Assembly (NCBI GenBank): GCA_944325555.1
Contig: CALVAN010000015.1
Coordinates: forward strand, 1-50,011
Direction: 5' to 3'
Source of the DNA: Candidatus Gastranaerophilales bacterium
Lineage (GTDB): Bacteria > Cyanobacteriota > Vampirovibrionia > Gastranaerophilales > Gastranaerophilaceae
Length of the DNA stretch: 50,011 nucleotides
A program made the position numbers and the translations under genes. A model generated the notes under the pieces. It saw only the letters and a list, made by a program, of their open reading frames with translations. It searched no databases and was not told the origin of the DNA. Shown here in pieces: positions 79 to 50,011 of this stretch (the stretch's first letter is position 1; every line of letters starts with the position of its first letter).

Positions 79-563
79 CCGCTTTAGCGGTCGGGTTTCA
101 GGGCTGCGCCCTGAAGGAACACGATTAGAGATTTTTAGACGAAGGAATGAAAATTTACCGTACCGAGTTTAACATTTTATGAGTGGACGGAAATTTTCAT
201 TTCTGAGTTTTAAAAGCTCTTTTGATACAGCGTGTTTTTCTTTTTTGGTTCGTTTTTTCTTTTTGCTTCGCAAACAAAAAGAAAAAATGAACAAGAGAAA
301 AACATCAACTAATAATTTTTTTAGATACTTATCTTCTATTAATAAATCTTTTTTCTTATGTTCATTTTCTTTCTTTGTATCTTGCAGGCAAAGAAAGAAA
401 ATGAACCAAAAGAAAGAAACCGGCGCTTTATTAAAAGAAACAGTACCGTATTTTTTCAAAGATTTTGCCGCGACTAGCTGCGGACAAAATCTTCTCAAAA
501 TACAACTGTTTCTAATCAAAGTTTCATCAGGGCACAGCCCTGAAACCCCACTGCTTACGCAGT
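79..563. repeat. Element A: palindrome-rich non-coding repeat with inverted ends
   Basis: The left end has a short hairpin (79-90), then GGGTTTCAGGGC and its hairpin partner (98-114), then GATTAGA. The right end (511-563) is the inverse: TCTAATCAAAG, a CAGGGC...GCCCTG hairpin, AACCCC and a hairpin at 550-563. Inside are strong stems at 144-156/191-203, 248-265/275-292, 360-377/389-406 (18 perfect pairs, 11-nt loop) and 459-493. Related modules recur in elements B and C. Open frames on either strand are low-complexity Lys/Phe/Ser strings with no family resemblance, so I read it as non-coding. It may be a non-autonomous mobile element or a structured RNA; no transposase is visible. Confidence 0.75.
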
Positions 564-5991: not shown

Positions 5992-6324
5992 ATGACAGAA
6001 GGCAGACGCTGGTATGACAAAGATCCGGTTTTAAAAGAAGCACTTGAACTTTTAAGACTCCAAACAGACGAAACAAAGGCAGAAGCTGCAGATTACATAA
6101 TGAAGCTGCAAGAACAGGTTGCTGCTGACGTAATCGAACATTTATACGAAACAATCTCTAAATATCAGGGCAAAGGCAACCGCTGGTATGACAATGACCC
6201 TGTTATGATGAAAGCCATCGAAATGCTCAGACTTGCACCACCCAAAATGCAAAGAATTGCAGCTCTAAAACTGTTGCTTGCTCTGGAACAAAAATCAACA
6301 GAACAGCTTGACGATTTTAAATAA
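5992..6324 (+). CDS. Small protein with two RWYD repeats (paralogue of 48852-49166)
   Basis: I do not recognise a described family. The 110-residue soluble protein consists of two similar halves, each starting RWYDxDP (residues 6-12 and 64-70), followed by an amphipathic helix (KEALELLRL; MKAIEMLRLAP) and a second helix rich in Ala/Leu/Gln. It has no membrane segment, signal peptide or cysteines. A second protein with the same two-motif plan lies at 48852-49166. It begins the folE2-dapL operon behind its own promoter, with folE2 starting 11 nt after its stop. The paired motifs suggest an internally duplicated helical repeat used for binding; this is inference. Confidence 0.85.
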   Translation: MTEGRRWYDKDPVLKEALELLRLQTDETKAEAADYIMKLQEQVAADVIEHLYETISKYQGKGNRWYDNDPVMMKAIEMLRLAPPKMQRIAALKLLLALEQKSTEQLDDFK

Positions 6325-11797: not shown

Positions 11798-12615
11798 AGT
11801 GATAATATTTATTATGTAAATCTAAAAATAATATTGTATTTTTAGATTAATCTATGGAGTTGCTTTATTAGATACTGCGTAAGCAGTGAAGCGGCTCTGC
11901 CGCCGGAACTAAATAAAAATCCGACCTTTGTGAAGAGAATTACAGAAAGTTTCACAAACAACAACAAGCGAGGTTTGTTTGAGGGCTATGTAATTATAAC
12001 AATCACTTTAATATATCAAAAGAGAGCAATTTATATAGCCCGAGTTGCCGAGCACAGGTTTGTGTTACTTTCTGTATGAACGGAACAGTAGGTCGGGAGT
12101 TTCTTGGGCTCCACCCGTTCTTTGCATCAAAGAATGGGTGGAACATAAAGCAGAAATTTATGTCTTTATTTTTTTATGTTCATTTCTTTTCTTTTGTATC
12201 TTGCAGGCAAAAGAAAAGAAACGAACCAAAGAAAAGAAAACCGGCGCTTATCAAAAGAAACAGTTAAGTGTTTTATCAAAGATTTTGCCGTGACAAGCTA
12301 CGGTCAAAATCTTCTCAAAACACAACTGTTTCTAGCCAAAGTTCCGTCAGGGCTCCGCCCCGAACCCCCTACGGCTCACATTGTGTGAGCCGTGTATATA
12401 ATAAAATAATCCGTCATTCTGAGCGAAGCGAAGAATCTACTTTCTATTTGCCGCTTAACGTTATTTTTTATACGAAGCTATTACAAAGGTCGGATTTTTA
12501 TTTAGTTCCGGCGGCAGAGCCGCTTCACTGCTTGCGCAGTTATAGTTTTAACCGTTTATATTGAATTATATATAATGTTAGCTATACTCAGATTTACATA
12601 ATAAATATTATCACT
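11798..12615. mobile_element. Element B: 818-bp nested inverted-repeat element without transposase
   Basis: The outer ends are a perfect 26-bp inverted repeat (11798-11823 and 12590-12615; begins AGTGATAATATTTATTATGT). A second inverted pair of 58 bp lies inside it (11874-11931 and 12483-12540) with one mismatch. Between them are hairpins at 12111-12141, 12178-12226 (19-bp arms, 11-nt loop), 12275-12312 and 12371-12393, and a short palindrome at 12414-12439. No convincing coding frame or target duplication is seen. About 370 bp of the core recurs inverted in element C. The form is that of a MITE-like non-autonomous element, but its internal structure is far richer than usual. Confidence 0.75.
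12414..12439. repeat. Short ATTCTGAG-type palindrome inside element B
   Basis: ATTCT and AGAAT flank GAGCGAAGCGA. The same unit is at 49836-49861 in the opposite orientation, and a GC-shifted version is at 615-648. Similar short palindromes are widespread in bacterial intergenic DNA. Confidence 0.65.
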
Positions 12616-44302: not shown

Positions 44303-47300
44303 ATGTTACAAGAAGCTACAAAAATTATTCAGTCGGCATTTCACGACAGTTTTATTAAAAGATTAAGCCTGTACCTGCATGATTGTGTAAGAGAAGAGGT
44401 TCAAAGCTCGACATTTCGCAACCTGAAACAGGATAAAGACAACAAATGGATTTTCATCAAAGGCGAGGAAGCATTATTTACAAAATTTGATGAGCCTTTG
44501 CATCTTGACGGTTCTGACAGTGATTTGACGGAACTTATGATACAAAGCGAAATGAGCCAGAAGGACAAATACCTTATATACGGACATTTATTTCTTGTCG
44601 GTAAAAATTCACGCACTAAAAGAAGCAATGAGTTTTTGACTCCGCTTTTGTATTCACCTTGCAAACTTGAACGTGAAGGAATGGATATTGTTTGCACGCT
44701 TCAAGACGACGTATTATCGCTCAACACCGGAGCATTAACGGCACTAATGCGCAAAAGCGATGATGAAGATGAAATGGAACACATGCTGGACGGGCTTCTT
44801 GAGGTAGTGCCTGAGCTTCCTTTAACACAGGAGAAACTAAACATCTTTCTGACCACATTAAAGTCTATTTTGCCTGATGTGGAAATATCACTTAACCATG
44901 AAGATGATGCAAACGAGAATTATGTAAAAGATGAGGCTGACACCTTCTATCAAAAAATAGATTCGGAAAACGTTGAAGATTTTATAGAAGAAACAAGTGC
45001 ACCAAGACCCGTTATGAAACTTGATAAAGTGTCAATAACAAGCCAAAGTGCCGTTATTTTAACAAAACGCCCGTCTGTTACGGCAGGTGTTTTACATGAG
45101 CTTATGCAAATAGCGGAAAAGCCCAGCGGAGTATTCAGAGAAACGGCTCTTTCCGTTGTAAATGACGAATATCTCAGAGGAATAGGCAAACTTTTTGACA
45201 AGTCAAATAAAGAGCCAAAAGATTTGTCTGACTTCTGTGCAGTAACACCGCTGTCATTAAGCGACTCTCAGGAAGATGTAATAAAAAAAATCGAACAAAA
45301 TACACTGCTTGCCGTTTACGGCCCGCCCGGCACAGGTAAATCACAAACAATTGTCAACCTCGTTGCTCACCTTGTGGCAAACGGGAAAACAGTGCTTGTT
45401 GCTTCACGTATGGACAAGGCCGTTGACGTTGTGGCACAAAGATTAAATGAACTGGGTGCTCCTTTTCTTGCACTGAGGGCCGGCAGATTAAATTATCAAA
45501 AACAGCTTAGTTTTCAGCTTCAGGACCTTATTGCAAACAAAATAGATATTGATACCGGTTATGAAGATGCAATACTTGTTGATGTCGATGACATGTACGA
45601 GCTTTTAAACGCAATAAAAGAACTCGAAAACAAATGTGAAAAAATTCTTTCACTGGAAAAAGAATGGCATGATATTATAGGCAAAAAACTTTCACTGGAA
45701 GCTGATTTAGGCGAAAAGCAATACATAAATCACAAACTTAAAAAAGACGAAATTGACGAGATTAAAAAAGTGCTTTCAAGCATTGAAAAAAATCTTGAAA
45801 AATCCGGATTGTTTACATCAATTTCAAACACTATGTCGGCAATGAAGCTTAAAAAGATATTGAATATCAACTCGCTTCCGTCAGATCCGGAGTCTATTAT
45901 GCGTTTGTCATTGGAATTGCAGGCAGAAGAAATGGAATGCAATGCAAGAATGACAGAAACAAGAATCCACAAAATCGGAAACATTCATCAGCTTCTTGCT
46001 CAAATCAAAGAACTTAAGAAAAAACAAAGAACACTGGCAGTTGATATTCTCAAAAACAAAAGAAGAGAATCTCTTAAAGGTCTTTTAAGAGATCAGGTAA
46101 AACGCCAGAGATTGATAGTACATACAAAAGCAATTGTTGAAAGAAAGAAAAATCTGCAAAACAGACTATTGGAAGAGGAAGATTTTACACCGCTGCTTGA
46201 AGCATTCCCTTGCTGGTGTTTAACAACCTATGCGGTGTCAGGCTCATTGCCGATGAAGCCCGGATTGTTCGACGTGGCTATTATTGATGAGGCTTCGCAA
46301 TGCGATATAGCCAGTTGTTTTCCTATACTATTCAGAGCAAAGAAAGCTGTAATTGTCGGTGACGATAAACAGCTTCCGCACCTGTCCTTCCTTGAAAAAG
46401 CAAAAGAACAGTCCTTCCTGAGCCAGTATAATATACCTGACAAATACCAGCTTATGTGGCGATTCAGAACAAACTCGATGTTTGACCTTGCAAACTATTA
46501 TTCAACAAATCCGGTACTGCTTGATGAACATTTCAGAAGCAGCTATCCGATAATTCAATTCAGCAATCAGGAATTTTACGGAAACAGAATACGTATTATG
46601 ACAAAAGATGCAGGTACTGACGACGTGCTGGAACTGCACATAGTTTCAGACGGCAAAGTCGATTCCGATGCAACACGCAACATGCCTGAGGTTGAAGCAG
46701 TATTAAAAAGAGTACATGAGCTTATCCTTGCAGATGACGGCAACGACGAGCACCCTGTCTCAATAGGTATAATTTCACCCTTCAGAGGTCAGGTGGATTT
46801 AATTTCCAAAGCACTAAGACAGGTGTTAACAGAATCCACCATCAGAAAACATCAAATAGAAGTAGGTACGGCTCACACATTCCAGGGTGATGAAAGGGAT
46901 GTAATGATACTTTCGTGGGCAGTAGCGGAAAACAGTTTTGTACAGAGCTTGACCTTCCTTCAAAAGCCGAATTTGTTTAACGTGGCAATAACCAGAGCAC
47001 GTAAAAAACTTATCTGCTTTATCTCCAGAGACCCCAAAGGTCTGCCGCCGGGGCTGTTAAAAGATTATCTTGAATATATTCAAAACTATCTTGCAAGTGC
47101 AAAAGATGATGAATTCCAGAAAAACAAATATAAAAACGAATTCGAAAAAGAAGTTGCGCAAGCGTTGATTATGGAAGGTTTTGATGTTCGTGCCGGCATT
47201 GAAGCGGCAGGTGTTCTGCCTGACCTGCTGGTTAAAGACACGGAAACAGATAACGAAATTGTTGTAGAAATTGACGGTGTAGAAGACAACGTTAAAGAGA

Positions 47301-47434
47301 AAATTTCCGACACAAAAAAACAAACTATACTTGAGCGAGCAGGCTATAAGGTTTTAAGAATATCTTTTCGTGAGTGGGAACACAGTTCACAAGCCTGCAT
47401 TGACAGAGTTAAAAAACTTATGGTAAATATCTAA
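44303..47434 (+). CDS. SF1 (DNA2/NAM7-like) helicase fused to a PD-(D/E)XK nuclease-type domain
   Basis: A 1043-residue protein. The N-terminal region (1-300) is unassigned. The helicase core follows: Walker A GPPGTGKS (340-347), VASRMDKAVDVVAQRL, DEAS (662-665), VGDDKQLPH, DEHFRSSYPIIQFSNQEFY, GTAHTFQGDERDVMILSW and NVAITRARKKL. A coiled-coil insert (about 430-600) separates motifs Ia and II. At the C-terminus PDLLV (Asp974) and VVEIDG (Glu989) fit a Vsr/DUF559-like PD-(D/E)XK fold. Upf1-like helicases with nuclease domains occur in several anti-phage systems, but this one stands alone in a housekeeping context, so a repair or RNA role is equally possible. Confidence 0.88.
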   Translation: MLQEATKIIQSAFHDSFIKRLSLYLHDCVREEVQSSTFRNLKQDKDNKWIFIKGEEALFTKFDEPLHLDGSDSDLTELMIQSEMSQKDKYLIYGHLFLVGKNSRTKRSNEFLTPLLYSPCKLEREGMDIVCTLQDDVLSLNTGALTALMRKSDDEDEMEHMLDGLLEVVPELPLTQEKLNIFLTTLKSILPDVEISLNHEDDANENYVKDEADTFYQKIDSENVEDFIEETSAPRPVMKLDKVSITSQSAVILTKRPSVTAGVLHELMQIAEKPSGVFRETALSVVNDEYLRGIGKLFDKSNKEPKDLSDFCAVTPLSLSDSQEDVIKKIEQNTLLAVYGPPGTGKSQTIVNLVAHLVANGKTVLVASRMDKAVDVVAQRLNELGAPFLALRAGRLNYQKQLSFQLQDLIANKIDIDTGYEDAILVDVDDMYELLNAIKELENKCEKILSLEKEWHDIIGKKLSLEADLGEKQYINHKLKKDEIDEIKKVLSSIEKNLEKSGLFTSISNTMSAMKLKKILNINSLPSDPESIMRLSLELQAEEMECNARMTETRIHKIGNIHQLLAQIKELKKKQRTLAVDILKNKRRESLKGLLRDQVKRQRLIVHTKAIVERKKNLQNRLLEEEDFTPLLEAFPCWCLTTYAVSGSLPMKPGLFDVAIIDEASQCDIASCFPILFRAKKAVIVGDDKQLPHLSFLEKAKEQSFLSQYNIPDKYQLMWRFRTNSMFDLANYYSTNPVLLDEHFRSSYPIIQFSNQEFYGNRIRIMTKDAGTDDVLELHIVSDGKVDSDATRNMPEVEAVLKRVHELILADDGNDEHPVSIGIISPFRGQVDLISKALRQVLTESTIRKHQIEVGTAHTFQGDERDVMILSWAVAENSFVQSLTFLQKPNLFNVAITRARKKLICFISRDPKGLPPGLLKDYLEYIQNYLASAKDDEFQKNKYKNEFEKEVAQALIMEGFDVRAGIEAAGVLPDLLVKDTETDNEIVVEIDGVEDNVKEKISDTKKQTILERAGYKVLRISFREWEHSSQACIDRVKKLMVNI

Positions 47435-49274: not shown

Positions 49275-50011
49275 TGATAATATTTATTATGTAAAAATAA
49301 ATTGATTATAGAAAATGCATTAAAAAACTATAACGGCTTACTTTGTAAGCCGTAGGGGGTTCGGGGCGGAGCCCTGACAGAACTTGGACTAGAAACAGTT
49401 GTGTTTTGAGAAGATTTTGACCGTAGCCTGTCACGGCAAAATCTTTGGTAAAACACATTACTGTTTCTTTTGGTAAGCGCCGGTTTTCTTTTCTTTGGTT
49501 CGTTTCTTTTCTTTTGCCTGCGCAATACAAAAGAAAAGAAATGAACATAAAAAAATAAAGACATAAATTTTTGCTTTATGTTCCACCCATTCTTTGGAGC
49601 AAAGAACGGGTGGAGCCCAAGAAACTCCCGACCTGCTGTTTCGTTCATACAGAAAGTAACACAAACCTGTGCTCGGCAACTCGGGCTATATAAATTGCTT
49701 TCCTTTGATATATTAAAGTGATTGTTATAATTACATAGCCCTCAAACAAACCTCGCTTGTAGTTGTTTGTGAAACTTTCTGTAATTCACTTCACAAAGGT
49801 CGAATTTTCATTTAGTTCCGGCGGCAAATAGAAAGTAGATTCTTCGCTTCGCTCAGAATGACGGATTATTTTATTATATACACTGCTCACACAATGTGAG
49901 CAGTAGGGGGTTCGGGGCGAAGCCCTGACGGAACTTTGATTAGAGATTTTTAAACGAAGGAATGAAAATTTACCGTACCGAAGTTGACATTTTGTGAGTG
50001 GACGGAAATTT
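49275..50011. mobile_element. Element C: inverted relative of element B, running into an A-type end
   Basis: It begins with TGATAATATTTATTATGTA, matching the outer end of element B. It then carries a hairpin (49333-49353), the stem at 49412-49449, the long hairpin 49498-49516/49528-49546 and the stem around 49590-49620, all as the reverse complement of B. At 49797-49825 it has the inner B end (ACAAAGGTCGAATTTTCAT), then the ATTCTGAG palindrome (49836-49861) and a hairpin (49882-49904). The last 80 bases match element A around 116-197 in the same orientation. It is therefore a mosaic of B and A modules that is cut off by the window edge. No transposase is visible. Confidence 0.7.

Follow-up and report, generated by a model that had tools for sequence, protein, structure and literature searches.

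Three segments that change in register suggest a constrained intrastrand triple helix in dispersed intergenic repeats of Gastranaerophilales

The stretch of DNA analysed here, called the window, comprises 50,011 nucleotides of a contig from a Candidatus Gastranaerophilales bacterium whose genome is available as 2.32 Mb in 60 contigs. It carries four copies of a long pyrimidine/purine hairpin (Table 1). The original prediction, made from the letters of the window, had placed all four correctly and had given three of them an 11-nt loop, which is the case for copies 2, 3 and 4; the loop of copy 1 is 9 nt. The positions of C in the pyrimidine arm vary by copy (T6CT5; T4CT3CT3; T3CT4CT4), and the opposite arm follows. 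Adjoining each hairpin is a third segment, the tail, which in all four copies is an exact mirror of the pyrimidine arm (Y-arm) and changes along with it. Read on the pyrimidine (Y) strand, the order in each copy is tail, G, GTTCR, Y-arm, loop, purine arm (R-arm) and TGAAC, so that tail, linker, clamp and Y-arm read, for example, TTTTCTTTTCTTT-G-GTTCG-TTTCTTTTCTTTT.

The window also encodes a 1043-aa protein (44303-47434) that partially matches the anti-phage helicases ProA and Hhe as well as helicases of the IGHMBP2 type, with every score far under its cut-off. An internal duplication (72%) joins 5999-6059 and 6173-6233 within a small ORF at 5992-6324. A 196-aa ORF at 169-759 spans the inverted motif pair formed by copies 1 and 2 and is most likely spurious.

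Table 1. Positions of the motif segments and accompanying elements in the window
Feature	Positions	Strand	Sequence or remark
Copy 1 hairpin	248-292		18+9+18 nt
Copy 1 tail (third-strand segment)	235-246	+	TTTTTCTTTTTT, mirror of Y-arm
Copy 1 5' clamp	248-252	+	GTTCG, after single linker G247
Copy 1 Y-arm	253-264	+	TTTTTTCTTTTT
Copy 1 loop	265-275	+	GCTTCGCAAAC, including closing G-C
Copy 1 R-arm	276-287	+	AAAAAGAAAAAA
Copy 1 3' clamp	288-292	+	TGAAC
Copy 1 hairpin 2, upstream on Y strand	120-232	+	-32.6 kcal/mol
Copy 2 hairpin	360-406		18+11+18 nt
Copy 2 tail	408-419	-	TTTCTTTCTTTT
Copy 2 5' clamp	402-406	-	GTTCA
Copy 2 Y-arm	390-401	-	TTTTCTTTCTTT
Copy 2 R-arm	365-376	-	AAAGAAAGAAAA
Copy 2 3' clamp	360-364	-	TGAAC
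Copy 2 hairpin 2	425-520	-	-35.8 kcal/mol
Copy 3 hairpin	12178-12226		19+11+19 nt
Copy 3 tail	12228-12240	-	TTTTCTTTTCTTT
Copy 3 5' clamp	12222-12226	-	GTTCG
Copy 3 Y-arm	12209-12221	-	TTTCTTTTCTTTT
Copy 3 R-arm	12183-12195	-	AAAAGAAAAGAAA
Copy 3 3' clamp	12178-12182	-	TGAAC
Copy 3 hairpin 2	12250-12345	-	-36.4 kcal/mol
Recurrent core element	12128-12405	-	GC palindromes, hairpin 2, linker TTTTGATAAGCG, triplex motif
Copy 4 hairpin	49498-49546		19+11+19 nt
Copy 4 tail	49484-49496	+	TTTTCTTTTCTTT
Copy 4 5' clamp	49498-49502	+	GTTCG
Copy 4 Y-arm	49503-49515	+	TTTCTTTTCTTTT
Copy 4 R-arm	49529-49541	+	AAAAGAAAAGAAA
Copy 4 3' clamp	49542-49546	+	TGAAC
Copy 4 hairpin 2	49385-49480	+	-36.4 kcal/mol

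The Y-arm pairs with the R-arm by Watson-Crick rules, GTTCR finds its partner in TGAAC, and base for base the tail matches the R-arm in parallel (Hoogsteen) orientation. Because the mirror of the Y-arm is at the same time the parallel match of the R-arm, the tail is what a pyrimidine third strand needs for T.A-T and C+.G-C triplets, and the motif, judged by its sequence, is laid out like a class IV (pyrimidine-motif) intrastrand triple helix. The arrangement is far beyond chance: when the window was scanned for three matching 11-mers, no place other than these four came up, and 40 first-order Markov windows gave no match. It had been predicted that each arm matches its own partner; the arms do change together, but clamp position 5 is a non-Watson-Crick pair in three of the four copies (A/C, read on the plus strand, at 12178; G/T at 248 and 49498).

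To collect further copies, we used search patterns in which the tail was not required, or only its last three bases were, so that the tail constitutes a fair test. The resulting covariation set contained 37 distinct sequences from two phyla, aligned without gaps. Among these collected copies the predicted pairing of the arms holds: in the 17-bp stem, 98.7% of cells are paired and 78 changes are two-sided, whereas sliding the stem by one to three columns lowers pairing to 60-68% and leaves 2-6 two-sided changes. The tail matches the R-arm in parallel in 97.7% of cells, with 69 two-sided changes, compared to 61-65% and 2-7 in slid registers. Both signals collapse on a slide of a single base. When tails were exchanged among sequences, the match never exceeded 83.8% in 2000 trials. 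Reading the tail as an antiparallel partner was rejected, since antiparallel pairing explains at most 78.6%, as was reading it as a direct repeat: counted per arm class, mirror identity is 117/120 versus 87/120 for direct identity, and the mirror value was reached by none of 20000 permutations.

A pyrimidine tail is kept in 149 of 157 distinct copies. Tail and R-arm match at 12/12 positions in 19 of 26 distinct triples, most of which also have a complete Watson-Crick match; as these are repeat families, each pattern counts as roughly one event, and it is the 19 fully agreeing tail/R-arm triples that remain. Paired change of the two arms alone would leave template-switch correction of a palindrome possible. 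What makes structural constraint convincing is that the third segment follows the changes of the purine arm in mirror register, a relation that, to our knowledge, is made by no copying mechanism. The original proposal of selection on a fold is therefore supported in part: the paired change is real and strong, and the mirror third segment indicates a structure that is more than the simple hairpin then described.

The same copies bear on which strand would fold. The outer clamp pair covaries, being G-C in 144 copies and C-G in 11, and the inner clamp pair, read on the Y strand, is always A-T or G.T (157/157). In 13 imperfect rows the odd one out is the Y-arm eight times, the tail five times and the R-arm alone never, a split with a probability of ~0.005 under equal chances, which is a rough value given that the rows are related and three clamp-proximal positions are fixed by the search. 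A change at R-arm position 1 was seen in two copies from G022, the genome with the most copies. Where the Y-arm is mutated, the tail follows the R-arm, with examples in G110, G131, G135 and G550. A change in a central strand breaks two contacts and a change in Y-arm or tail only one; since the R-arm never deviates alone, it would be the central strand. On the opposite strand, the middle position would fall to the complement of the Y-arm, and no segment deviates more often than the Y-arm. These sequence patterns favour the pyrimidine strand as the one that folds, as class IV. Such a fold also suits the chemistry, because T.A-T drives the stability of pyrimidine motifs, G.G-C stabilising purine motifs (PMC4666352), and the motif is mostly A/T.

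Beyond its own borders, the motif is, by sequence comparison, a module common to dispersed mosaic repeats. Its copies in the window's genome are preceded on the Y strand by a second hairpin (hairpin 2), with a linker such as TTTTGATAAGCG, and are accompanied by GC-rich palindromes. In the largest hairpin 2 family, 10 of 28 pairs occur as more than one Watson-Crick type, so hairpin 2 also covaries, and at least three hairpin 2 sequence types accompany the same triplex classes. Blastn comparisons showed that the modules recombine separately, and in G022 the same motif is joined to differing upstream modules. Around copy 3, 58-nt inverted ends (98%) at 11874-12540 enclose a ~670-bp composite with a folding z of about -18, much of which recurs inverted at 49344-49826. 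In RUG12020, RGIG4922 and the GQ group, and less cleanly in G530, similarity between repeats is high up to the motif and falls sharply right after TGAAC, whereas in G511 and partly in G022 it continues beyond. The fall in similarity suggests that the motif caps one end of the repeat unit, although not universally. Taken on its own, an end-of-repeat role is a plausible idea that we hold to be somewhat short of probable.

The motif is intergenic and has no gene-orientation bias. For 92 scorable copies, the Y strand was sense to the neighbouring genes in 31 and antisense in 21, and the copy lay between convergent genes in 19 and divergent genes in 21; further copies were scored inside predicted ORFs, most of them short (13), or lay at locus edges (46). 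At the PNPase locus, genome G000 carries ~1.1 kb of modules between two genes that in the congener G017 are joined by a short intergenic region lacking the PNPase-side copy, which documents gain or loss at one site. A third genome, G016, has a different module class at the same site and in the same orientation.

Genome-wide counts were obtained from pattern searches, and the reversed-pattern controls gave zero matches at every level searched (genome, family and phylum). The general pattern matches 33 times in the window's genome. Matches were found in 42 of 191 genomes and 11 of 39 genera of the family to which this genome belongs, and in 27 of 292 genomes of a phylum-wide sample. The spread is patchy, with some congeners lacking any copy and G022 having ~30. 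At least Gastranaerophilales and a few Campylobacterota carry the motif, Sulfurovum and other Campylobacterota being among the matches listed; in a sample of 150 Campylobacterota genomes, the only match was the genome used as its centre. A search of viral contigs and plasmids gave no motif matches, and carriage by phage or plasmid was rejected on this basis. A literature search for repeats in Gastranaerophilales returned nothing relevant. At many loci of G000 and G022, copies lie at contig ends unusually often; it is probable that assemblies break at these repeats, whose real copy numbers may exceed those counted.

Close inverted pairs combine different stem classes in 12 of 12 cases, including the 248/360 pair in the window, and close direct pairs share a stem class in 2 of 2. 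The chance of 12/12 is roughly 0.05, as estimated from the class frequencies of the window's genome, so a different-stem rule is no more than suggested. Different stems in inverted neighbours would avoid an unstable long palindrome. In E. coli TMECO, five of five close inverted pairs are of A+B types (PMC4666352).

Taking these observations together, we consider it probable that the family reflects a three-stranded fold under evolutionary constraint; the structure, unlike any function, is well supported by sequence. The pyrimidine strand, when single-stranded, would fold into a hairpin closed by the 5-bp clamp, and the tail would cross the clamp by one G and lie in the major groove of the arm duplex, forming T.A-T and C+.G-C triplets. 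Evolution would have kept this fold rather than the letters, the three segments having moved together through ~19 patterns. The role that we favour is one in which the motif would mark, by its structure, the end of an intergenic repeat that moves or recombines. It would act while the DNA is single-stranded, in replication or transfer, where the folded form could stall or redirect synthesis; this might spread the repeat and shuffle its modules, as has been proposed for BoxC/TMECO instability. Counting against a triplex are the need for protonated C in C+.G-C triplets and, in E. coli cells, the lack of a triplex footprint at TMECO (PMC4666352). A search for a mobilising enzyme found no Y1 transposase in G022 and no reverse transcriptase in the window's genome, and both were rejected as movers for that reason.

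The original prediction had allowed for a fold in DNA or RNA. As putative RNA, the pyrimidine strand could place a triple helix at the 3' end of a structured transcript and block 3' exonucleases in the manner of MALAT1/ENE, which we regard as possible although unlikely. We would put a little lower still the more specific proposal, drawn by analogy, that repeat-derived Gastranaerophilales RNAs end in a clamp-locked U.A-U triple helix, that their 3' ends are thereby protected, and that three-strand covariation maintains them. MALAT1/ENE has the order U-rich (Hoogsteen), U-rich (Watson-Crick), A-rich, with occasional C+.G-C triplets, and the segment order here is the same. In several genomes the motif sits at the 3' boundary of the repeat when the Y strand is read, the G.T wobble in the clamp occurs only on that strand, and hairpin 2 upstream shows compensatory changes. 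Spanning a paired 5-bp clamp with a single nucleotide is a tight fit in B-form DNA and suits the geometry of A-form RNA better. Against an RNA stand the absence of gene-orientation bias, the lack of a T-run terminator, and upstream modules that differ between copies, so that no shared promoter is apparent. We had noted an apparent strand specificity of hairpin 2 (16 G.U and 0 A.C; the Y strand folding better in 161 of 189 regions), and this was dropped because a shuffle control, after which the asymmetry in folding energy was gone, showed the energy difference to be composition. With the structure predicted without G.U pairs, G.U versus A.C events in hairpin 2 stand at 24:14 (p=0.14). A terminator or 3'-UTR role was rejected, there being neither orientation bias nor a T-run, and a known structured RNA family was rejected likewise, as a search of Rfam 15 gave nothing above gathering score and only generic hairpin scores far below cut-offs. 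Hence the RNA half of the earlier claim found no support in gene orientation, Rfam or the G.U test.

Another arrangement would be double-stranded H-DNA in a supercoiled duplex, or a class II purine-motif triplex of the purine strand as in TMECO. R-arm and tail do form a mirror repeat with a 6-nt spacer, which is the sequence requirement of H-DNA, and any class IV motif becomes class II when its other strand is read. However, where there is a mismatch among the segments, the tail goes with the R-arm of the Y strand and not with the complement of the Y-arm, so the duplex of the pyrimidine strand is the constrained one; moreover, H-DNA needs neither the inverted third segment nor the clamp, and a mostly A/T motif is poor in the G.G-C triplets by which purine motifs are stabilised (PMC4666352). 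We judge these arrangements improbable.

It is very unlikely, in our view, that these are ordinary hairpin repeats in which template switching or quasi-palindrome correction, together with the copying of a few masters, has matched the arms and the third segment is incidental. The arms are short, close together and low in complexity, and classes A and B each have two hairpin 2 subtypes, so modules are exchanged. The tail match is lost in some copies (L283, L245, L084 and L048); in L084 the duplex is restored at the cost of the third-strand match, which looks like an arm correction that left the tail behind. L084 and L212 come from one Campylobacterota genome, one copy having a tail/R-arm match with a Y-arm mismatch, the other having the duplex with the tail match lost, as palindrome correction would produce. 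Nevertheless, template switching yields inverted or direct repeats and not the mirror relation seen in the parallel match of tail and R-arm, and the tail is as invariant as the arms even though the loop varies: in 15 aligned G022 copies, tail and arms are invariant but for one base, while loop and flanks vary.

A non-autonomous transposon of REP/MITE type, mobilised by a Y1 (RAYT-type) transposase, would account for dispersed, intergenic copies with a hairpin at the unit end and gain or loss at one site, yet it is very unlikely given that Y1_Tnp, found in 8 of 23 genomes, is absent from G022 and several other carriers.

Compared with known systems, the present repeats resemble REP/BIME and MITE elements in being intergenic, dispersed, palindromic and mosaic; they differ in their third covarying segment, in their much longer composite units and in having no association with a Y1 (TnpA_REP)/RAYT transposase in the genus. 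The MITE feature of inverted ends is found in one composite, that with the 58-nt ends, and the triplex unit itself has none. With MALAT1/ENE the motif shares the order of segments, at the 3' edge of the unit in several genomes, although here the order is known from DNA; its three strands lie in one short hairpin with a 5-bp clamp, whereas the two U-tracts of MALAT1/ENE are parted by a stem-loop.

The closest likeness is to the intrastrand-triplex repeats BoxC/PIT/TMECO (Holder et al. 2015, PMC4666352; earlier Hoyne and Maher as cited there), for which folding was seen in vitro, with NMR/CD in the case of TMECO/BoxC, but not in vivo, and which are linked to genome instability. TMECO/BoxC and the present family are both short three-segment motifs foldable on one strand into a triple helix, with many intergenic copies, no orientation bias, a patchy occurrence among relatives and close inverted pairs of two types. 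By the published PIT/ITxF definition, three consecutive segments of class II (Y-R-RH) or class IV (H-Y-R) with at most one mismatch are present here, and the stems, at 11-13 nt, lie within the 6-15 nt range. Loop 2, at 6 nt, is within the limit of 1-6 nt set for both loops, an operational limit of the search and not a structural one; loop 1 exceeds it, at 9-11 nt in the window, up to ~18 nt elsewhere and usually at least 8 nt, and is 4 nt in one genome (L210/L218). The TMECO consensus is G/C-rich (CCCTCNCCC N3-6 GGGNGAGGG N3 GGGNGAGGG), and the A/T-rich stems found here do not match it. As the TMECO consensus fails and loop 1 is over the published limit, we regard the family as a new variant of the kind and not as a TMECO member. 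The family fits best into class IV on the pyrimidine strand, a class making up 4% of the matches in PMC4666352. Unlike BoxC/PIT/TMECO, which are enterobacterial and have one near-fixed sequence, it has a conserved, covarying GTTCR/TGAAC clamp, three segments that covary over many patterns, and a place within larger mosaic repeats of Gastranaerophilales and Campylobacterota. Whether bacterial intrastrand triple helices are biology or accident has been asked since the discovery of BoxC/PIT, whose near-identical copies gave little evolutionary leverage. Here, by contrast, three segments covary in register over ~19 patterns and two phyla, the covarying clamp fixes the geometry, and the central strand can be told from the segment that never deviates alone. 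A covarying family of this kind opens the triplex question to direct testing and offers a series of compensated triplexes provided by nature.
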